From positions 558,001-622,000 of the forward strand of contig NZ_FQTW01000001.1 of the NCBI RefSeq assembly GCF_900129035.1: a stretch of 64,000 nucleotides of DNA, given 5' to 3'. How positions within the stretch are numbered: position 1 is the first letter of the stretch; every line of letters starts with the position of its first letter. This DNA comes from Psychroflexus salarius. Its GTDB lineage: Bacteria; Bacteroidota; Bacteroidia; Flavobacteriales; Flavobacteriaceae. The notes beneath the pieces are model-generated. The model was given only the letters and a program-made list of their open reading frames with translations, was not told where the DNA came from and made no database searches. Both the position numbers and the translations under genes were made by a program. Of the stretch, positions 1,421 to 13,292 are shown piece after piece.

Positions 1421-1447
1421 ATTTTCAAGTGCTTTTATTTAATTTTA

Positions 1448-1479
1448 TTGCTTTAAAATTATTTTTATTGCTACTTTTG
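1448..1479 (+). promoter_or_regulatory. Bacteroidota-type promoter of the giant T9SS gene
   Basis: TTG at 1448-1450, a 21-base spacer, then TACTTTTG at 1472-1479 (consensus TAnnTTTG). The box ends 15 bases before the ATG at 1495. This is why the in-frame ATG at 1429, which lies upstream of the promoter, was rejected as the start. Confidence 0.65.
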
Positions 1480-1494
1480 AATAAATACTTAATC

Positions 1495-4400
1495 ATGAAT
1501 CGAATAATTACTCTTCTATCCTGCCTATTTTTGTTATTCAGCATTAAAGCAAATGCGCAATGCTCAACAACACCATCACAAGTTTCAAGTATTAATCTAA
1601 GTGTAAATGCTGGTTCACTTTCAGTTAGTTGGAACGAAGTCAGCACTGATGCGCGTTATTTAGTTATTGGTCGTGAAACATCAGAAACAACATTTACTCC
1701 TGTAGACGGAACAGCATACACAGCAGGAGCTAGCTTAAATTTTGCAACAGCTGCAATTGTAGGTGTTGACGATTCAAAACTTTTAGCAAATACTTCAAAT
1801 GAAAATGTTAATATAAGTGGTCTAGAAGAAGGTACAACTTATCACATTTCCATATTTGCATTTTGTGACAATGGCCTTTTATATAATACTTCACTTACAA
1901 ATGAAGCCAATTCAGATTCAATTTTATTCACGCTTAATTATTGCTCTATAGGTTCAAATATTGCTAGTGATACCGATATAAATAGTATCTCTACAAATGG
2001 TTTTAGCAATTCAGACGCTGGTGGTACAGAATCAAATGAATATTATGATAACACTAATCTTGGTCCAATTGAAGTATATCAAGACACTGAATTTGACTTA
2101 GAATTAGATGTAAGTTCAAGTGCATCTGAACCTTCTCAAGTTGTCGCTTGGATAGATTTTAATCGTGATGGCGATTTTAATGACTCAGGTGAAAATATAG
2201 ATTTTGGTGAAATTACATTGAACTCTACAACAAGCCTAACAGAAACCATACAAGTTCCTGCAAATGCAACGCTAGGTACTACCAGATTAAGAGTGGTTAT
2301 AAAAGAAGGAAGTGTAGACCCAACTAGTTGCGGTAATCAAGATGGAATTGAAATTGAAGACTACAGCTTAAACATCAATACAATCAATACCTCTGATATA
2401 ATAAATGTTTCTAATAATTCAACCTCAAATACCATTACAGCAAACGAACAAACCATAGATTTTGGTGGTATTGACTCAGGTATTGGTTTTGAGTCTATAT
2501 TTTTTGAAATTAAGGATGATAGTAATTTTTCTGATGGGATAAACACAGAAGTTAATCAAATGACACTCCAAGAAGGAGATAACAACAGCTTTAACTGGGA
2601 TGGTCTAGACCTAAATAAAGTTGTTATAACTCATAGCGATAATTCAGATTTTACCAGTGCTTCAACAATATTGCTAACATCAGCTGAAGTCACACAAACA
2701 GGAAATTCTATTAGTTTAGATTTATCAAGTACAACTGTAAACATTGCAGATAACACCTCTAAATACTTTAAAATAAATTTATTTTTAGATGAAACACTAC
2801 CAGTTGATAGTGATCAAAGTCTTTTTCAAGCTGAAGTTACTTTTAATAACTCAGGCTTTACAACTACTACGGGAAGTAATGGCTTCTTAAGCGAAATTAA
2901 TTCTGGAAATGATCTCTTAGGTCCAGAACTTACTATTAATGTTGAAGCTTCTCAACTTGTATTTACCAGCACCTTTTTAAGTGACTATTTTGTAAATATT
3001 GATTTTGAAACTATAAGCGTTCAAGCTCAAGACATTAACGGTAATTTAGATACAGATTACTCAAATGAAGTTACTTTAAGCTCAGACGATCTTAATAGTA
3101 TTGATATTTCAGTCGATGCTACAAATTCAGTATTTGCTGAAAATGGTGAAGCAAATTTTAATGCTATTTTTTATGATGAAGTAGCTACTGCAGAAACACT
3201 TCAAGCGACTGATGGAACATTTTCGTCTAATTCTTCATCAAGTTTTAATGTAATTGAAACTGATTCAGATACGCAAATTGAATCACCAACTACTCAAATT
3301 TCATCAAGCACAGTCATTGCAGCAGACCATACAAGCTCAGGCACACCAATTGAAGTTTTCAGATTTGATATTGAAGACTTAGGGACTTCAGATGGTTTGT
3401 CAACCTTTGTAACTGAAATTAAATTTACTTCAGCAGATAATAACACAGCAAATTTTCAAGATGTTATCAATAACATTAGCCTATCAGACGGAACACAAAC
3501 CTATGTTGCAGATAGCTTTACTACCACTCAAGACACCATTACCTTAAGCTTTACGGCAACACCAATTGAAGTAAATGATGCCTCAACTTTAACGCTTACT
3601 GCTTCAGTAGAACTTTCAAATAATCCAATTGTAGATAATAGCATTTTAGCTTTAGAAATTGATACCGCTAATCATGAATTTAGCTCTACTAATCAAGGTT
3701 CAAATTTTGAAGAAAACCAGAGCAACGGAATTATTACTGGACCTGAAATTACTCTAAATGTTGTTGCAACTGAGCTTATTTTCTTTCAACAACCTAGTAA
3801 TACGCTAATCGGGCAAACAATGATTCCAGAAGTTGAAGTTGCTGCGGTAGACGTCAACAATAACTTAGATACCGATTATTCTCAAAACGTCACATTAACA
3901 ACAAGTGGTGTATCAACCATTAGCGTTTCTTCAACACTAACAAAACAAGCTATTGATGGTGTTGCCTCATTTGATGATTTAAATTATTCTTCATTAGGTA
4001 TCGACAATTCGCTGTCTGCTGAAGATAATTCAACACCGACAAGCTTGGTTAGTGGCTCAAGCAACTTATTTGATATTTTAGGCACATTTGACGAAACAAG
4101 CTTAGTGAATGTTCCTGGATCACAATCAACAAATCAAATTATTGAAGCCGCATTATTTACTGATGCTTCATCTACATTTGAAGTCTTAAGTTTCAGTATT
4201 AATGATTCAGGTCCAGATGGTTTATCGACCAACGTTACTCAAGTCAGTTTTACACCTTCAACAGAAAATACAGCTGACTGGAGTGACCACATTTCGGGGC
4301 TTGTTTTAAGTGACGGAACTACAACATACACGCCAGATTCTTCAACAATAAATGATACCGAGATTATACTTGAATTTGACACGCCTATTATTGTTGAAGA

Positions 4401-7371
4401 CGCGTCAAGCCTAGAACTTAAAGTAAACGCTTTTTTAAATACAGCTAATATTGTAGATGGCGAGATTATTAGTTTTGAAATTGCAACTTCAAATGCAGGA
4501 TTCAGTACAAATACCTCAGGAAGTAGATTTAATTCACCTTACGTTACAGAAACTATTACAGGTCCAGAAATAACGGTTGATGTCGTAGGAACAGAACTTG
4601 CTTTTTCAGCTCAGCCTACAAATACATTAATATTTCAAAACATGTCTACAGTTGAAGTAAGCCTGACCGATATTAACGGTAATGAAGATACAACTTCAAC
4701 AATACAAGTGAGTATTACATCAACAGGTAGTTTGATTGGCGGCACGACTTCTTCTTTAACTAGTAGCGGCTTTGCATCATTTGATGATATTGTTCACGAT
4801 GCTACAGGTACAGGCTTAACTCTAACTGCTAACGCAACAGGGTTTACCCCGATTACTTCAACAAGTTTTGATATCACAGATGAAGAAGTCATTGCATTAC
4901 AAGATTGGGATGACACCACACCTGTTTGGTCTGTAAGTTCTGTAAGTAGCATATCAGGATCAGGATGGGATACTGATTTTTATGGCGAAATACAAAACAA
5001 TACGGGTAATGTAGATGAATTTTCTAATAGTGGATTCCAAAATGAAATCTTTGGGGTTAATAATTTAGATGCCATCACAGGTGCCTTAAACCCGGAACTT
5101 ATAGAATTAGTAAATGTGGATGTTTCAAATTATGACGATATCTCATTTTCATTCGACTATGAGTATTTAAACCTAGATGATGCTGTTGATATTCTATCTT
5201 ATGAACTATTTTATGATGATGTTTCACAAGGTGAAGTAAGCCTTCTATCTACTGGAACAGATCAAGACTTGAGTGGAAACATTAATCTGAGTGTAGATGA
5301 AAGTGGTGGAGAAATCAGTAACATACGCGTAACGTTAAAAGTATTTAATAATAGTTTAGATGAATATATTGGGATAGATAATATCTCTCTTTTGGGTAAA
5401 AAAGCAAGTATAGATTACGTTTATGATGGCACAAGTTGGTCTCCAGAAAATCCTGATGGCATTGCAACAATTCAGGATAATCTTACAGTAGAATCAGGAA
5501 CAACTAGTTTAAACTCAATTAACTTTTGCAATAACCTACAAATAGATGCTGGCGCAACCTTAAATTTAAATGCGGCAACAACATTTGCTGGTGATATCAC
5601 AAACGATGGTGAGTTAAATGCTACTGATGCAGATCTAGAATTTAAAGGTTCAACTATACAGAGCTTAACTTCATCAAACAAAATCAATGTAAAATCGATT
5701 AAATTAAGTAATTCAAACAATCTCACACTAGACACGGACATCGATTTGTTTGAAACCCTAACAATAGATGCAGGAAATATTAATATTAATACTAATGACA
5801 CCTTAACTCTAAGAAGTAATGCGTTAGGCACGGCATCTATCGGTCAAATTGCTAACGGTTCATCAATCAGTGGTGGGATTATAATTGAGCAATTTATTCC
5901 ACAATCTAATCGTGCATTTAGATATTTATCATCGCCAATTTCTACAACAACTTCAATTAATGACAACTGGCAAGAAGGTCAAAATAATAATTCTGGAGAA
6001 ATTTCAAATTACAACGAAAACTGGAGTAGTTATGTTACTGACGGAAACAATCAAGACAATAATCCAGGATTTGGTACTCATATAACAGGGTCTAACACTG
6101 GCTCTGATGGTTTTGACGAAACCATCACTGGTAATTCGTCTATATTTAGTTGGGATAATTCGTTTCAACAATGGAATTCAATCTCAAATACGCAATCTAA
6201 TTCATTAATTGCTGGCAATGCTTATGCAGTTCTCATTAGAGGCGACAGGTCTACTAGTTTATTTTCAAACTCAGTTGTCGGAGGTGCAACAACATTAAGA
6301 ATAAAAGACAATGCTGAAAACCTAGTTTATGGCAATACAAATGTCAATAGCAATTTATTAAATTCTGAAGCCATTGGAAGCTGGAATTTAATTGGGAATT
6401 TATATCAAGCTAAAGTTGATATGCAGCAAATCACTAATAATTCAACTGATATTCAATCGAATTACTACTATGTTTATGACCCAACTCTTAATGAACGTGG
6501 TGGCTATGTAGCAGTAGATTTAAATACTATTAATGGCTCACCAACGCCAAGTTCTAATCAAGACAAATACTTACAGCCAGGACAAGCCTTTTTTATTCAA
6601 AATACGGGAGTTTCACCTCAATTAAGCTTTCAAGAAAACTATAAAAAAGCCGGGCAAGTCACAAATGTTGTTTTAAGTACTTCAAATAATACTGACTTCA
6701 AAGAAGTTAATATTGAAGTATTTAAAAATCAAACTTTAGTTGATGGTGCGAAAGTTGAGTTTGGAAGCCAATATAGTGATGAAGTTAACTTTGAAGATGC
6801 TGTAAAATTATGGAATAATGACGAAAGCTTAGCAATTAAAAATAATGAAGATTATTTAAGTATTAATAAAATAAATTCTTTAGATCAGGATACTGAAATA
6901 AATTTATTCTTATGGAATTTTACTTCAACTAATTATATCTTTAAAATAAATATCACTAATGTTGAAAACGCAATATTATATGATCAATATTTAGAGACTT
7001 ATACATCATTAGAAAGCGGACAAAATTCTATTGATGTTGAAATTGACGAAGCCATAACTGAATCGATTGACTCTAACCGTTTTAAGATTATTTTTGATCC
7101 AACAACGCTTAACTTTGAGAATTTTGAAGACTCCATTGAAGCGCTTAGCATTTACCCGAACCCGAATTCTGGTAAATTGATTAACATAAAAGGAAACTAT
7201 GACTTCGAAAACATTAAAGTTAATATTTATGATCAATTCGGAAGACTTATTAACTCTCCTTCAATTAAACAACAACAAATTAACTTTAAGACTGCTTTAA
7301 ATCCAGGACTCTATTTTGTGGAGTTTAAAAACGGTAACAATAAATCGACTAAAAAATTGATTGTGAAATAA
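1495..7371 (+). CDS. Giant secreted multidomain protein with T9SS sorting domain
   Basis: A 1958-residue exported protein with a signal peptide of about 22 residues ending KANAQ. In order: a fibronectin III-like domain (about 23-145); a GEVED-type domain (about 150-291) with a WIDFNRDGDF calcium-loop-like motif; three diverged repeats of about 270-290 residues (starting near 299, 587 and 861), each ending with a GPEITxNVxxxxL strand and an NGNLDTDYS-like strand; a jelly-roll-like region (about 1143-1305); a beta-rich head with the FRYLSSP motif near 1475; a conserved module from about 1724; and a type A T9SS sorting domain (SIYPNPNSG, about 1885-1958). It is Asn/Ser/Thr-rich and almost cysteine-free, as is usual for surface adhesins. 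Function is unknown; adhesion or a cell-surface role is an inference. It shares its last 500 residues with the product of 42591-44384. Confidence 0.85.
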   Translation: MNRIITLLSCLFLLFSIKANAQCSTTPSQVSSINLSVNAGSLSVSWNEVSTDARYLVIGRETSETTFTPVDGTAYTAGASLNFATAAIVGVDDSKLLANTSNENVNISGLEEGTTYHISIFAFCDNGLLYNTSLTNEANSDSILFTLNYCSIGSNIASDTDINSISTNGFSNSDAGGTESNEYYDNTNLGPIEVYQDTEFDLELDVSSSASEPSQVVAWIDFNRDGDFNDSGENIDFGEITLNSTTSLTETIQVPANATLGTTRLRVVIKEGSVDPTSCGNQDGIEIEDYSLNINTINTSDIINVSNNSTSNTITANEQTIDFGGIDSGIGFESIFFEIKDDSNFSDGINTEVNQMTLQEGDNNSFNWDGLDLNKVVITHSDNSDFTSASTILLTSAEVTQTGNSISLDLSSTTVNIADNTSKYFKINLFLDETLPVDSDQSLFQAEVTFNNSGFTTTTGSNGFLSEINSGNDLLGPELTINVEASQLVFTSTFLSDYFVNIDFETISVQAQDINGNLDTDYSNEVTLSSDDLNSIDISVDATNSVFAENGEANFNAIFYDEVATAETLQATDGTFSSNSSSSFNVIETDSDTQIESPTTQISSSTVIAADHTSSGTPIEVFRFDIEDLGTSDGLSTFVTEIKFTSADNNTANFQDVINNISLSDGTQTYVADSFTTTQDTITLSFTATPIEVNDASTLTLTASVELSNNPIVDNSILALEIDTANHEFSSTNQGSNFEENQSNGIITGPEITLNVVATELIFFQQPSNTLIGQTMIPEVEVAAVDVNNNLDTDYSQNVTLTTSGVSTISVSSTLTKQAIDGVASFDDLNYSSLGIDNSLSAEDNSTPTSLVSGSSNLFDILGTFDETSLVNVPGSQSTNQIIEAALFTDASSTFEVLSFSINDSGPDGLSTNVTQVSFTPSTENTADWSDHISGLVLSDGTTTYTPDSSTINDTEIILEFDTPIIVEDASSLELKVNAFLNTANIVDGEIISFEIATSNAGFSTNTSGSRFNSPYVTETITGPEITVDVVGTELAFSAQPTNTLIFQNMSTVEVSLTDINGNEDTTSTIQVSITSTGSLIGGTTSSLTSSGFASFDDIVHDATGTGLTLTANATGFTPITSTSFDITDEEVIALQDWDDTTPVWSVSSVSSISGSGWDTDFYGEIQNNTGNVDEFSNSGFQNEIFGVNNLDAITGALNPELIELVNVDVSNYDDISFSFDYEYLNLDDAVDILSYELFYDDVSQGEVSLLSTGTDQDLSGNINLSVDESGGEISNIRVTLKVFNNSLDEYIGIDNISLLGKKASIDYVYDGTSWSPENPDGIATIQDNLTVESGTTSLNSINFCNNLQIDAGATLNLNAATTFAGDITNDGELNATDADLEFKGSTIQSLTSSNKINVKSIKLSNSNNLTLDTDIDLFETLTIDAGNININTNDTLTLRSNALGTASIGQIANGSSISGGIIIEQFIPQSNRAFRYLSSPISTTTSINDNWQEGQNNNSGEISNYNENWSSYVTDGNNQDNNPGFGTHITGSNTGSDGFDETITGNSSIFSWDNSFQQWNSISNTQSNSLIAGNAYAVLIRGDRSTSLFSNSVVGGATTLRIKDNAENLVYGNTNVNSNLLNSEAIGSWNLIGNLYQAKVDMQQITNNSTDIQSNYYYVYDPTLNERGGYVAVDLNTINGSPTPSSNQDKYLQPGQAFFIQNTGVSPQLSFQENYKKAGQVTNVVLSTSNNTDFKEVNIEVFKNQTLVDGAKVEFGSQYSDEVNFEDAVKLWNNDESLAIKNNEDYLSINKINSLDQDTEINLFLWNFTSTNYIFKINITNVENAILYDQYLETYTSLESGQNSIDVEIDEAITESIDSNRFKIIFDPTTLNFENFEDSIEALSIYPNPNSGKLINIKGNYDFENIKVNIYDQFGRLINSPSIKQQQINFKTALNPGLYFVEFKNGNNKSTKKLIVK

Positions 7372-7422: not shown

Positions 7423-7494
7423 ATGTTAAAAAATAATGTTTTTTGCTAACTATTAATATTTTTTGCTACTTTTATGTATGTAAAAACAATACCT

Positions 7495-8268
7495 ATGAAA
7501 ACAATTACTTTTTTTACGTGTTTAGTCGCCATTTTCGGGAGTGCTTATGGTATGCAGAATAACAATAGCGGAGAAATAACAGCTAATCTTTATCGTGTAA
7601 CTAATACAGATGAGATTTTAGTTGATGGTATTAGGGTTCAATTTAACGAAATCTACTCTAATCAAGTAACTAATGAAGATGCTGGTAAGATGTGGAATCC
7701 TGATGAAAGTGTAGCAATTTTAAACCAAAACTATTACCTAAGCATTGATAAAAGAAACTTGTATACACCAAATACAGAAGTTAAATTCTACTTCTACAAT
7801 TACGTTGCTACAAACTATAAGCTTGAAATTAATCATGATTTAAATGATCAAATATACTTATACGACAGCTTAGCAAATACCTATTCAACTTTAACATCTG
7901 GAACAAATGCTATTTATTACAGTGTTGAAAATAATCAAATTTCAGCTTCACCAGAACGCTTTAAAATAGTGTTTACAAATCCGTTCGATAGTACCTTATC
8001 AACCACTAAAATAACTTCAAAAGATGTAAAAGTTTATCCAAATCCCACAAAAGATGGTTTTGTAAATATTGACACACATTTATTAAAAGGTTTAGATGTT
8101 GAGCTTTTAGTGTATGACCAACTAGGGCGTCAAGTATTCCAAGAAAAAAGAAACATTCAAAACAATAGTTCAATGCTTAACTTAAATACATCAGTAAAGC
8201 AAGGCACCTATATTTTACAAATTAAAACAGACCAACAACAATTCACCAAGCGTTTGGTGGTGTTATAA
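7495..8268 (+). CDS. Small secreted protein: stand-alone copy of the T9SS C-terminal module
   Basis: A 257-residue protein. The ATG at 7495 gives a normal signal peptide (MKTITFFTCLVAIFGSAYG), and a TAnnTTTA-like box lies just upstream, so the in-frame ATG at 7474 is less likely. The mature part aligns by eye along its length with the last 250 residues of the preceding giant protein: KMWNPDESVAIL here against KLWNNDESLAIK there, then a YLSI strand, a TNYKLEI strand, a YLYD strand and a RFKIVF strand. It ends in its own T9SS type A sorting domain (VYPNPTKDGF). No catalytic residues are recognised. It looks like a duplication of the terminal module with its own secretion signals. Confidence 0.8.
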   Translation: MKTITFFTCLVAIFGSAYGMQNNNSGEITANLYRVTNTDEILVDGIRVQFNEIYSNQVTNEDAGKMWNPDESVAILNQNYYLSIDKRNLYTPNTEVKFYFYNYVATNYKLEINHDLNDQIYLYDSLANTYSTLTSGTNAIYYSVENNQISASPERFKIVFTNPFDSTLSTTKITSKDVKVYPNPTKDGFVNIDTHLLKGLDVELLVYDQLGRQVFQEKRNIQNNSSMLNLNTSVKQGTYILQIKTDQQQFTKRLVVL

Positions 8269-9377: not shown

Positions 9378-10488
9378 ATGCTAAATCAAGACACACTCAA
9401 ATCACTTCAAAAAAGATTAACCGCCCTAAAACAGTATCTTTGACTTAGATGCTAAAGCCATAAAAATTTCAAACGAAGAAGAAAAAACCTTTGCGCCAGA
9501 TTTTTGGGATCAACCACGTCAGGCGCAAATCGTTATGCAAGAAATCAACAAAGAGAAACAGTGGATAAAAGATTTTAACCACGCCAAAACTTTAGTTGAA
9601 GAAACTGAAACACTTTACGAATTTTTTAAAGAAGATGAAGTCACTGAAACTGAAGTTGAGACTGCTTACGCTAATGCGGTTACTTCAATTGAAGATTTAG
9701 AATTTAAAAATATGCTTTCAGATGAAAGTGACGAGCTTACCGCTGTTTTACAAATTACCGCTGGTGCTGGTGGCACCGAGAGTTGTGATTGGGCTGAAAT
9801 GCTTATGAGAATGTATATTATGTGGGCTGAACGAAAGGGCTTTAAAATAAAAGAACTCAATAACCAATCTGGAGATGTTGCAGGTGTAAAAACAGTCACA
9901 TTAGAAATCGAAGGCGATTATGCTTTTGGGTGGCTTAAAGGTGAAAATGGTGTGCATCGCTTAGTCAGGATTTCGCCTTTTGATAGTAATGCCAAACGTC
10001 ACACTTCTTTTGCTTCGGTTTATGTCTATCCTTTAGTTGATGACCGTATAGAAATTGATATCAATCCTGCCGATATAAAATGGGATTTTGCGCGTTCTGG
10101 TGGCGCTGGCGGTCAAAATGTTAATAAAGTTGAAACCAAAGCCATCTTAACTCATCACCCAAGTGGTATTGTTATACATAATTCTGAAACACGTTCACAG
10201 CTTGAAAACCGTGAAAAAGCGATGCAAATGCTAAAATCTCAACTATACGAGATTGAATTACAAAAGCAACTTTCAGCACGAAACGAAATTGAATCAGAGA
10301 AAAAAAGTATTGAATGGGGTTCACAAATCAGAAATTATGTAATGCATCCTTATAAACTTGTAAAAGATGTTAGAACAAGTCACGAAACTGGAAATGTAGA
10401 TGCCGTAATGAACGGGAATATAGATGAGTTTTTAAAAGCTTACCTTATGGCTGAAGGACAAAAAACAGAACAAACAGAAGAATTATGA
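9378..10488 (+). CDS. prfB: Peptide chain release factor 2 with programmed +1 frameshift
   Basis: Release factor RF2, which ends translation at UGA and UAA codons. The ATG at 9378 opens a 21-codon frame ending in TAT CTT TGA C (stop at 9441-9443). Reading continues in the +1 frame from GAC at 9442 to 10488, giving about 369 residues, the usual length. This is the classical autoregulatory RF2 frameshift slip site. The SPF codon-recognition tripeptide (RISPFDS) and the catalytic GGQ (residues about 244-246, in GGAGGQNVNKVET) are present. The AGGGGG-like stimulator that precedes the slip site in E. coli is absent. The downstream arsC-like gene overlaps by 4 bases. Confidence 0.95.
9435..9443 (+). 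promoter_or_regulatory. prfB programmed +1 frameshift site (TATCTTTGAC)
   Basis: In-frame TAT CTT TGA immediately followed by C. The weak UGA-C stop context slows termination and lets the peptidyl-tRNA slip from CTT to TTT. The upstream codons (CTA AAA CAG) contain no purine-rich Shine-Dalgarno-like tract. Confidence 0.92.
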
Positions 10489-10826
10489 TAACAATTTACC
10501 ACAATCCAAGATGTAAAAAATCACGTGAAGGCCTTCAATTATTAGAAGAAGCTAATGTAGAATTTGAAATTGTGAAGTACCTAAATGAAGTACCTTCAAC
10601 CAATGAAATTGAATCAATTTTAGAGAAACTCAATAAAACACCAATTGAACTGGTGAGAACTAATGAAAAAATCTGGAAAGAAAATTTTAAAGGGAAAGAT
10701 TTAAGCGATCAAGATATTATTGAAGCGATGCATTCATTCCCTAAATTAATTGAACGACCAATCGTTATTAACAATCAAAAAGCAGTAATTGGCCGACCAC
10801 CAGAACAAATTAAATCAATAATTTAA
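10485..10826 (+). CDS. ArsC-family (glutaredoxin-type) arsenate reductase-like protein
   Basis: A 113-residue thioredoxin-fold protein of the ArsC/Spx/YffB family. The N-terminal NPRCKKS places the reactive cysteine at C10. Three arginines matching the oxyanion-binding arginines of classical ArsC are present (R58 in LVRTNE, R91 in IERPIV, R104 in IGRPPE), which favours arsenate reductase over Spx. No arsenite pump or ArsR regulator is nearby, so a general redox role remains possible. The start overlaps the prfB stop (ATGA), implying translational coupling. Confidence 0.88.
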   Translation: MITIYHNPRCKKSREGLQLLEEANVEFEIVKYLNEVPSTNEIESILEKLNKTPIELVRTNEKIWKENFKGKDLSDQDIIEAMHSFPKLIERPIVINNQKAVIGRPPEQIKSII

Positions 10827-10878: not shown

Positions 10879-11850
10879 ATGGTTCACAAAATTAAGAGTG
10901 AAAATTTAGCAAACGAATATCAAAATTGGAAGTTTAGTCAAAAACTAATTGAGTCAATTTGTGAAACCTTAATAAAGTATGAAATTGATCATCTAAAAGC
11001 TGGACTAGAAAACTCGCTAATCAACTCTTTACAAGGAGATGAAGCCTTTGATATTTATAACACTTTTAAAAAGCTAGACCTTACAAATCTAATTGATGGT
11101 TTTAATTATACTGAAATACAGCTATTAAAGTCAGATCTTGAAATTATCTTAAATTTAATCCGAGTCACTGAAAAAAACGCTACGGATTCAAATGAAGTGG
11201 GCATTACAGTAGATGATAAATCTTTAAGCATTGCCGATTTTAAGCTAACTAGAAATCAGTATGTTGACAAGGCTATTAATTATGTTGCTAAAAAACACAA
11301 TCTTAATAAAGCCTATGAATCAACGCTAATTGCAGCTTTAAGATATGCGTCAATTTACGCTAAGACTAGACATATTGGCCCACCACAAGATGTTTATGAT
11401 TTATTTTGTGATTGGGGAATTAAAAATGAAGGCTTTGCTTCTCCTTTTAACGCTAGACTTCTTGGCAAAGACAACTGTAAATTTTATAGTTTATTTAAAG
11501 AAACCGATTTTATTTTTGGTAGTGAAGGAAGCTTTTTTGACCAAGAAAAGCCTACAAACCCAGGGCATTGGAGTCTAGATCCGCCTTTTACCACCGAAAT
11601 CATTGAAATAACAGAGGCTAAACTTAAAAAATGGATTAAATTATATCCATCAATAAGCTTCTTATTAATTATACCAGCATCTTACCAGCTCAAGATAAAA
11701 CCTAATGAAACTGTTAGGCTTTTAAAAAATGTTCATTCTTACGAAGGCTTAGAAGGTGTCAAGAAAAAATTGCCACTAGATGTCAATATTCATCGTTTTG
11801 GTGAAATTGAAAAATTCTCTGTGGAAGCTATTAAAAATGCTTACACTTAA
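10879..11850 (+). CDS. PCIF1-like putative adenine-N6 methyltransferase
   Basis: A 323-residue protein. Residues 1-165 are mostly helical and unassigned. Residues 165-290 carry the ordered signature I associate with the PCIF1 family (the m6Am cap methyltransferase of animals): EGFASPFN (184-191), FGSEGSFFD (213-221), SLDPPF (232-237) and FLLIIPA (261-267). DPPF fits the (D/N/S)PP(F/Y/W) catalytic motif of adenine-N6 methyltransferases; human PCIF1 has NPPF in the equivalent place, preceded by FASP and FGSRG motifs. There is no WW domain, and the protein is under half the human length. The substrate (DNA, RNA or other) is unknown. It follows prfB-arsC by 52 bases on the same strand and is closed by a terminator. 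The assignment rests on motif order recalled from the family, not on a search. Confidence 0.7.
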   Translation: MVHKIKSENLANEYQNWKFSQKLIESICETLIKYEIDHLKAGLENSLINSLQGDEAFDIYNTFKKLDLTNLIDGFNYTEIQLLKSDLEIILNLIRVTEKNATDSNEVGITVDDKSLSIADFKLTRNQYVDKAINYVAKKHNLNKAYESTLIAALRYASIYAKTRHIGPPQDVYDLFCDWGIKNEGFASPFNARLLGKDNCKFYSLFKETDFIFGSEGSFFDQEKPTNPGHWSLDPPFTTEIIEITEAKLKKWIKLYPSISFLLIIPASYQLKIKPNETVRLLKNVHSYEGLEGVKKKLPLDVNIHRFGEIEKFSVEAIKNAYT

Positions 11851-11852
11851 TA

Positions 11853-11880
11853 AAAAAGCCTCAATTTGATGAGGCTTTTT
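11853..11880. terminator. Bidirectional terminator between the PCIF1-like gene and fumC
   Basis: An 11-bp perfect stem, AAAAAGCCTCA/TGAGGCTTTTT, gives T-runs on both strands between two convergent genes. Confidence 0.9.
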
Positions 11881-11897: not shown

Positions 11898-13292
11898 TTA
11901 TTTTGAGTTTGTCATATCTTCAGGTTTAACCCATTCATCAAATTCTTCAGCTGTTGTATAGCCTAAATTAACAGCTTCCTCTTTTAAAGTTGTACCATTT
12001 TTATGGGCAGTATTGGCAATTTCAGCTGCTTTATAATATCCGATTTTTGTATTTAAAGCTGTAACTAACATCAACGAATTTCTTAAATGTTCGTCTATTC
12101 GTGCTTGATTAGGTTCAATACCTCTTACACAATTAACATCAAAAGAAACCGAAGCATCCCCAAGTAATTCAGCTGATTCTAAAACATTAGCAGCCATAAC
12201 TGGTTTAAATACATTCAGCTCAAATTGGCCTTGCATTCCACCAGTAGTTACAGCAAAATCATTACCTATAACTTGGCTGCAAACCATTGTTAAAGCTTCA
12301 CATTGTGTAGGATTAACTTTACCAGGCATTATAGATGAGCCTGGCTCATTGGCAGGAATATTTATCTCACCAATACCACTTCTAGGACCAGATGAAAGCA
12401 TTCTAATATCATTTCCTATTTTATTTAAAGAAACGGCTAGCTGTTTTAAAGCACCATGAGTTTCAACCAAAGCATCATGAGCAGCTAAAGCTTCAAATTT
12501 ATTTTCAGCTGAAACAAAAGGATATCCCGTAAATTCAGCAATATATTTAGCTACATTTTCAGCATAATTTTTAGGTGTATTTAAGCCTGTACCAACTGCT
12601 GTACCGCCTAAGGCTAATTCAAGTAAGTGAGGTAATGTATTTTCAAGAGCTCTTAAACCATGATCAAGTTGTGAAACATAACCGCTAAATTCTTGACCTA
12701 AAGTTAAAGGTGTGGCATCCATAAAATGCGTACGACCAATTTTAACTACATCGGCAAAAGCTTTTGATTTAACTTCTAATTGATTTCTTAACTGTTGAAT
12801 TCCTGGTAAAGTAACTTCAACTATTTTTTTATATATCGCAATATGCATTCCTGTCGGAAAGGTATCATTCGATGATTGAGATTTATTAACATCATCATTT
12901 GGCGCTATGGTCTTTTCACCTTCACCAAGTTTGTGTCCCTGAAGCTGATGAACGCGATTAGCAATAACTTCATTAACATTCATATTGCTTTGAGTACCTG
13001 AACCTGTTTGCCAAATAACTAGAGGAAATTCATTATCGTGTTTGCCTTCAAGAATCTCGTCACATACCTGAGCAATTAAATCTCGTTTTTCGGTAGATAA
13101 AACGCCTGCATCCGCATTAGTAAAGGCTGCTGCTTTTTTTAAGTAAGCAAATCCATAGATAATTTCTAGTGGCATTGAAGCCGCTTTTCCTATTTTAAAA
13201 TTATTTCTAGATCGTTCAGTTTGCGCTCCCCAAAGTTTATCTTCTGGAACTTTCACTTCGCCAATTGTATCTTTCTCTATTCTGTAGGTCAT
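11898..13292 (-). CDS. fumC: Class II fumarate hydratase
   Basis: Oxygen-stable, iron-free fumarase of the TCA cycle, interconverting fumarate and L-malate. It is 464 residues long, normal for FumC. The superfamily signature [11 protein letters not shown] is at 318-328 (the catalytic serine is in this loop), [10 protein letters not shown] at 186-195 carries the active-site histidine, and [13 protein letters not shown] at 96-108 is the substrate-binding segment. A TAAATTTG box on the minus strand at 13311-13318 lies 18 bases before the start. Confidence 0.97.

Follow-up and report, generated by a model that had tools for sequence, protein, structure and literature searches.

The DNA considered here is a 64,000-nucleotide stretch of the Psychroflexus salarius genome (contig NZ_FQTW01000001.1, positions 558,001 to 622,000), referred to below as the window. 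Its subject is a gene at positions 10879 to 11850, whose product was described in a first-pass annotation, made from the sequence alone, as a methyltransferase resembling PCIF1/CAPAM, the vertebrate enzyme that forms N6,2′-O-dimethyladenosine (m6Am) next to the mRNA cap. The positions given there for FASPFN, FGSEG, and DPPF were confirmed in the 323-amino acid (aa) open reading frame (ORF), with LIIPA following at residues 263 to 267. The gene and its features, all on the + strand, are as follows; published statements cited in this work are taken from excerpts of the respective papers.

10879–11850, +: coding sequence of the bacterial PCIF1-family methyltransferase; ATG start, 323 aa plus stop, intact ORF
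10879–11373, +: N-terminal domain, residues 1 to 165, mostly helical and fast evolving (model and identity by region)
11338–11385, +: LRYAS (residues 154 to 158) and TRHIGPP (163 to 169), conserved, at the domain junction (alignment)
11434–11451, +: FASPFN (186 to 191), in the region of the active-site loop, aligned with vertebrate PCIF1 FASPLN (profile alignments)
11515–11529, +: FGSEG (213 to 217), aligned with FGSRG of PCIF1 (PDB sequence and profile searches)
11578–11589, +: DPPF (234 to 237), catalytic motif IV by alignment with NPPF of PCIF1
11740–11802, +: C-terminal segment YEGL...LPLDVNIHRFG (288 to 308), kept in bacterial proteins and mostly gapped in two giant-virus-like homologues
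11853–11880, +: inverted repeat AAAAAGCCTCA/TGAGGCTTTTT, ending in T, directly 3′ of the stop codon (by eye)

The name “active-site loop” follows PMC10544176, where active-site, catalytic, and substrate loops of PCIF1 are described. The C-terminal segment is perhaps a bacteria-specific substrate loop. The inverted repeat looks like a terminator; it was read by eye and is absent from the list produced by the terminator scan.

Conservation was assessed in an alignment of 15 proteins (A2, also used as a profile), made up of the window protein and the products of 14 loci from a pattern-seeded scan of genome_contigs. FASPFN, FGSxG, DPPF, TRHIGPP, and LRY(A/G) are each present in 15 of 15 proteins. 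The LRYAS of the window protein recurs in the two giant-virus-like homologues; TRHIGPP is not found in those two. The 14 relatives are 38 to 50% identical to the window protein, with 25 to 38% identity in the N-terminal half and 49 to 63% in the rest.

Family membership and predicted fold

PF12237 (PCIF1_WW) was the single family reported by Pfam for the window protein at E ≤ 10 (E = 6.7e-17; score of 62 bits, gathering cut-off of 31.1 bits), and it is matched by all 15 members of A2. The name of the family is considered a misannotation, since it covers a CAPAM-like methyltransferase and not a WW domain (PMC7641849). When the single sequence was searched against the PDB, only two matches were obtained, both to PCIF1 and both weak (0.0054 and 0.083). 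With A2, vertebrate PCIF1 was found at 3.5e-9 as the sole match below E = 0.1, the next chain being at 0.31. With profile A4, which contains 11 proteins (nine from A2 and the two giant-virus-like homologues, L054 and L061), PCIF1 reached 9.3e-17 and nothing else appeared up to E = 1. The FASPxN and FGSxG loops and the xPPF motif are aligned in the same order with PDB entries 6irv and 6irx. No NCBIfam family was found for the window protein, and the only PHROGs match had an E value of 0.16.

The AlphaFold2 model built with A2 is confident [mean predicted local distance difference test (pLDDT) score of 89.2, predicted TM-score (pTM) of 0.86]. In a Foldseek search of the PDB, six of six matches at E ≤ 0.001 were PCIF1 entries (the best at 1.9e-11), with RlmJ lower down at E = 0.069. 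A helical region precedes the methyltransferase (Rossmann) domain of the model, and DPPF lies after a strand (residues 230 to 233) and before a helix (239 to 255), where motif IV usually lies in the methyltransferase fold. The likeness to PCIF1 proposed by the first-pass annotation was thus borne out both by the Pfam match, at twice the gathering score, and by a model that matches only PCIF1 entries of the PDB at E ≤ 0.001. Overall, the ORF is, by profile and predicted fold, a member of the PF12237/PCIF1-type family and represents a real, rare, and conserved bacterial branch of it.

Enzymes with a [DNS]PP[FYW] motif are known to carry out adenine-N6 methylation. Because of the motif order, the fold, and the conserved xPPF, we think it probable that the gene encodes an S-adenosylmethionine (SAM)–dependent adenine-N6 methyltransferase of the bacterial PCIF1/CAPAM branch.

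Distribution, genomic context, and selection

The gene is present in 14 of 27 Psychroflexus genomes (12 of the 23 of good quality) and missing from the other 13 (11 of 23). The pattern-seeded scan of genome_contigs (84,980 species), which requires an exact conserved peptide and could miss more distant branches, yielded 14 loci. These come from eight named Psychroflexus isolates, two metagenome-assembled genomes (MAGs) labeled Psychroflexus, a MAG labeled Flavobacteriaceae, Salibacter halophilus, a Bacteroidetes MAG, and a MAG labeled as a proteobacterium. The contig of the Flavobacteriaceae-labeled MAG is that of genome G311 and belongs to Psychroflexus. The proteobacterium-labeled MAG (locus L029) is the sole carrier found with a label outside Bacteroidota, a placement that rests on MAG binning; the assembly is ~7 Mb in size, and the gene lies on a 10-kb contig (CAJWOS010000252.1) together with a flagellin gene.

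Searches with profiles gave the same picture of rarity. The PF12237 cut-off was exceeded in 2 of 299 genomes from the family and in 3 of 395 from the phylum, all Psychroflexus; in 1 of 377 genomes of the phylum of the proteobacterium-labeled MAG, which was that MAG itself; and in none of 14 control genomes. Scans with profiles A1, A2, and A4 also found 3 of 395 genomes in the phylum, again all Psychroflexus; in the order to which Salibacter belongs they found 1 of 42 genomes, and in the class of the MAG 1 of 71, each being the starting genome. Single-protein searches of genome_contigs, phage records, and plasmid records gave no match. Two PF12237 matches below the cut-off were not counted: L004 lies within an ORF that by eye resembles an M16 peptidase, and L005 is a 37-aa frame with stops.

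In the window, the gene stands between conserved neighbors, in agreement with its earlier placement after prfB and arsC:

9378–10488, +: prfB (release factor 2), conserved neighbor (locus comparison)
10485–10826, +: ArsC-family gene, conserved neighbor, ending 52 bp upstream of the methyltransferase gene
11898–13292, −: fumC (fumarase), conserved convergent neighbor

The apparent start codon of prfB, ATG at 9378, is in another frame, which reaches TAT CTT TGA C at 9435 to 9444, presumably the well-known site of programmed +1 frameshifting in release factor 2; because of this site, the prfB ORF listed from 9535 would lack the N terminus. Farther upstream, a 1980-aa ORF (1429 to 7371) that by eye resembles a large secreted protein is followed by a Por_Secre_tail protein (7474 to 8268).

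Twelve of the 14 Psychroflexus carriers, namely the window and 11 of the 13 loci tested, have the order prfB–ArsC gene–methyltransferase gene–fumC. In L017 and L018, which come from fragmented assemblies, none of the three neighbors lies within 1.5 kb. In the longer loci, the 20 neighboring proteins scanned represent various kinds and change from locus to locus; L031 has a tRNase Z-like protein and a secreted endonuclease I among them, and L030 has a guanosine triphosphatase (GTPase) of the YchF type. L029 is rich in guanine plus cytosine (G+C), and ORF picking there is uncertain. The G+C content of the gene is 31% in the window, 44% in Salibacter, and 67.5% in L029, each time close to the value of its source (33% for the window and 39 and 65% for the two loci). 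For a pair of proteins that are 79% identical, the nonsynonymous and synonymous rates were dN = 0.110 and dS = 0.770 (dN/dS of 0.14). The dN/dS values for the same pair were 0.013/0.681 for prfB, 0.057/0.507 for the ArsC-family gene, and 0.010/0.396 for fumC. The methyltransferase gene is therefore under purifying selection, yet it evolves faster than prfB and fumC.

Among the 13 noncarriers, an ArsC match was found in 11, strong in 7 and weak in 4, and a close fumC (80 to 88% identity) in 12. In the seven genomes with a strong match, other genes follow the ArsC gene within ~1.5 kb, and no significant remnant of the methyltransferase gene was detected in these 7 of 13 (the four with a weak match and the two without one were left out). 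The region is thus rearranged, and it shows no clean excision. The gene had been judged not to be an obvious part of a restriction-modification system, and this holds: PADLOC-DB matched none of 10 proteins flanking the gene in the window at E ≤ 0.001, nor did it match any of three family members. A linkage to phage defence, suggested at the same time as something to look for, did not appear among these 10 proteins. Overall, this is an accessory chromosomal gene that occupies one site in most Psychroflexus carriers and occurs sporadically in a few other bacteria.

Relation to PCIF1, other methyltransferases, and giant viruses

The bacterial protein shares with vertebrate PCIF1 (PDB 6irv to 6is0) the PF12237 core, the FASPxN and FGSxG loops, an xPPF motif followed by an IP strand, and a helical region before the Rossmann domain. 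It is 323 aa long, as opposed to the 704 aa of the human enzyme (PMC11550742). Changes at N553 and F556 of the PCIF1 NPPF motif, including N553A, lower activity, and the cap ribose is reportedly recognized by R239, R269, and E563 (PMC11550742). Significant sequence alignments to PCIF1 stop short of the helical domain, so R239 and R269 have no place in them. After DPPF-x, the first residue is E in 2 of 15 proteins and the second is E in 14 of 15; either may correspond to E563.

Several observations weigh against the reading of the gene given above, or against taking its product for a PCIF1 orthologue or a cap enzyme. Pfam reported no WW domain, the N-terminal part with which PCIF1 binds the C-terminal domain of RNA polymerase II, in the window protein at E ≤ 10; all 15 of 15 proteins have D where NPPF has its catalytic N; and the C-terminal segment differs from that of PCIF1. 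The Foldseek alignments to PCIF1 have a high root mean square deviation, 13 to 18 Å, and a query-normalized TM-score (TMq) of only 0.52 to 0.60; because of this deviation, the domains of the model may be placed differently from those of PCIF1. The N-terminal domain had been left without an assignment for residues 1 to 165, and this is still so in Pfam and after that domain alone was compared with PDB folds. Residues 1 to 169 were modeled separately with a pLDDT of 87.2, and the search gave no match at E ≤ 0.001 and no PCIF1 among the best 50 matches. The PCIF1 helical domain thus failed to emerge when the domain was searched by itself, which counts against a similarity over the full length. 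In addition, none of eight carrier genomes was found to contain the capping guanylyltransferase family PF01331, in a search that gave sub-cut-off matches in 2 of 14 controls, and the longer loci outside the common site (L026 and L029 to L032) have no neighbor in common with the window, so context names no substrate.

The full-length fold matches reach TMq values of 0.60 to 0.75 though the Rossmann half makes up about half of the protein, from which we infer that part of residues 1 to 165 is aligned as well; an equivalence of this region to the PCIF1 helical domain is plausible from the model. D in place of N works in adenine methylation in other methylase families. Because PF01331 was found in none of the eight carriers, a 7-methylguanosine (m7G) cap is not expected in these bacteria, and bacteria are not known to make an m7G mRNA cap. 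The bacterial protein belongs to the PCIF1-type family, a role as a cap enzyme being hypothetical, and the D-for-N replacement, the missing WW domain, and the C-terminal segment argue against plain orthology. These differences and the PF01331 result also uphold the earlier statement that the substrate must be something other than the eukaryotic cap.

The bacterial rRNA and tRNA N6-methyladenosine (m6A) methyltransferases RlmJ, RlmF, and TrmM share the xPP motif, in their case NPPF/Y (PMC8868631), and differ in that none of their Pfam and NCBIfam families was matched by the window protein. A jumbo-phage adenine methylase, AMM43637.1, has been called closest to the PCIF1 clade (PMC7824862); it resembles the bacterial protein in being a candidate adenine methylase of RNA that occurs among prokaryotes. 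It is 180 aa long, matches only the phage Dam family PF05869 in Pfam, and does not match profile A2, and we rejected it as a link to the bacterial branch. PF05869 was not reported by Pfam for the window protein at E ≤ 10.

The closest fold matches are viral. The nine best Foldseek matches among viral models were three pithovirus proteins, proteins of Hokovirus, Cafeteria roenbergensis virus (CroV), Bodo saltans virus, and Tetraselmis virus 1, a nameless entry, and a fish-poxvirus protein. Seven of the nine come from giant viruses and bear an annotation as PCIF1 or WW-domain protein. The best E value was 2.1e-13, with TMq of 0.75 for Pithovirus LCPAC103 and 0.65 for CroV, whose protein (E3T4I2, 362 aa) is of similar size. 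The next tier is a phage DNA N6-adenine methylase at 1.7e-4.

A motif pattern and profile scan of viral_contigs revealed the two homologues L054 (6169 to 7212, −) and L061 (2902 to 3804, +), both on giant-virus-like contigs of uncultivated origin. They score 81.8 and 45.2 bits against the bacterial profile, while 20 shuffled sequences and the jumbo-phage Dam were not reported. The L054 protein matches PF12237 at 7e-21 and is 21 to 30% identical to seven bacterial proteins, the nearest nonbacterial relative among those found. It shares EYxxW and LRYAS with them in the N-terminal half. Both homologues differ in having NPPF, no TRHIGPP, and a shorter C-terminal segment. We take L054 to be a probable giant-virus contig because of this PF12237 match and because the gene lies near what by eye is a ubiquitin-hydrolase-like gene. 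At its N terminus, the L054 protein also has, by eye, a hydrophobic stretch that may act as a membrane anchor. The viral_contigs match in L033 (21 residues, on a contig with phage tail-type genes by eye) and four of five pattern matches (L055 to L058) were due to chance, and a second motif pattern found nothing. Psychroflexus torquis is listed among the species in giant-virus transcription-gene trees in the Figure 3 legend of a 2012 paper (PMC3493329); this could mean that an early draft was contaminated or that genes have really moved between giant viruses and the genus.

Possible substrates and implications

In the mechanism we propose, SAM would be bound at the FASPFN and FGSxG loops. As in other [DNS]PP[FYW] enzymes, the target adenine would stack on F237 of DPPF, and D234 and P235 would hold its N6 amino group. 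The N-terminal domain, together with the bacteria-specific C-terminal segment, would choose the substrate. We favor RNA as that substrate, with moderate confidence, because PCIF1, the sole characterized family member, acts on RNA.

Within an RNA substrate, methylation of tRNA or rRNA appears rather unlikely, though prfB lies close to the gene in 12 of the 14 carriers in Psychroflexus, its neighbors elsewhere include the tRNase Z-like protein and the YchF-type ribosome-binding GTPase, and its catalytic half is well conserved. Unlike core tRNA and rRNA enzymes, it is missing from 13 of 27 Psychroflexus genomes and rare in the other bacteria sampled. The enzyme could instead be an orphan adenine methyltransferase of DNA, with a role in gene regulation or DNA protection; we consider this a live but unlikely alternative to RNA methylation. 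DPPF fits DNA adenine enzymes, as judged from Dam-type motifs in general, and a phage DNA methylase follows in the viral fold search; however, the E values of the PCIF1-type viral proteins are lower by as much as roughly nine orders of magnitude, no DNA methylase family was among the Pfam results at E ≤ 10 (where filtering removes most of the weak matches), and no restriction or defence gene was found among the 10 flanking proteins.

Methylation of the first transcribed A of bacterial RNA, be it 5′-triphosphate, nicotinamide adenine dinucleotide (NAD)–capped, or Np4-capped, would make the enzyme a counterpart of m6Am writing. PCIF1 acts on the cap-adjacent A (PMC6378647), and the helical region before the methyltransferase domain of the model agrees with such a role. 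This special case of RNA methylation seems quite unlikely to us, as the cap-contact residues R239, R269, and E563 are unplaceable in the bacterial protein, the N-terminal domain alone has no PCIF1 match, and nothing speaks positively for a 5′-end substrate. The notion that the gene is contaminating eukaryotic or giant-virus DNA, or a decayed import, can be almost entirely dismissed. It draws on the fact that the giant-virus-like homologues are the nearest nonbacterial relatives found, and it is contradicted by the common site in isolates, including the single-contig genomes G315 and G322, by the host-like G+C content, and by the low dN/dS.

A bacterial member of the PCIF1 family bears on earlier accounts of its distribution. 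According to a 2022 survey (PMC8868631), PCIF1 is confined to eukaryotes and prokaryotic homologues are absent, and among the matches listed in our search of the open-licence literature, we found no earlier report of a bacterial homologue; protein databases may already label these proteins PF12237. The conserved bacterial branch provides the enzyme in compact form, in cells for which no m7G cap is known, and it sharpens the question of whether PCIF1 originated in bacteria, giant viruses, or protists. With its named carrier isolates and noncarrier genomes, Psychroflexus makes the question of RNA modification directly testable. If the first transcribed A were indeed the target, methylation of 5′-end adenosine would extend beyond eukaryotes and their viruses, and there would be a prokaryotic branch of PCIF1, shared with giant viruses.
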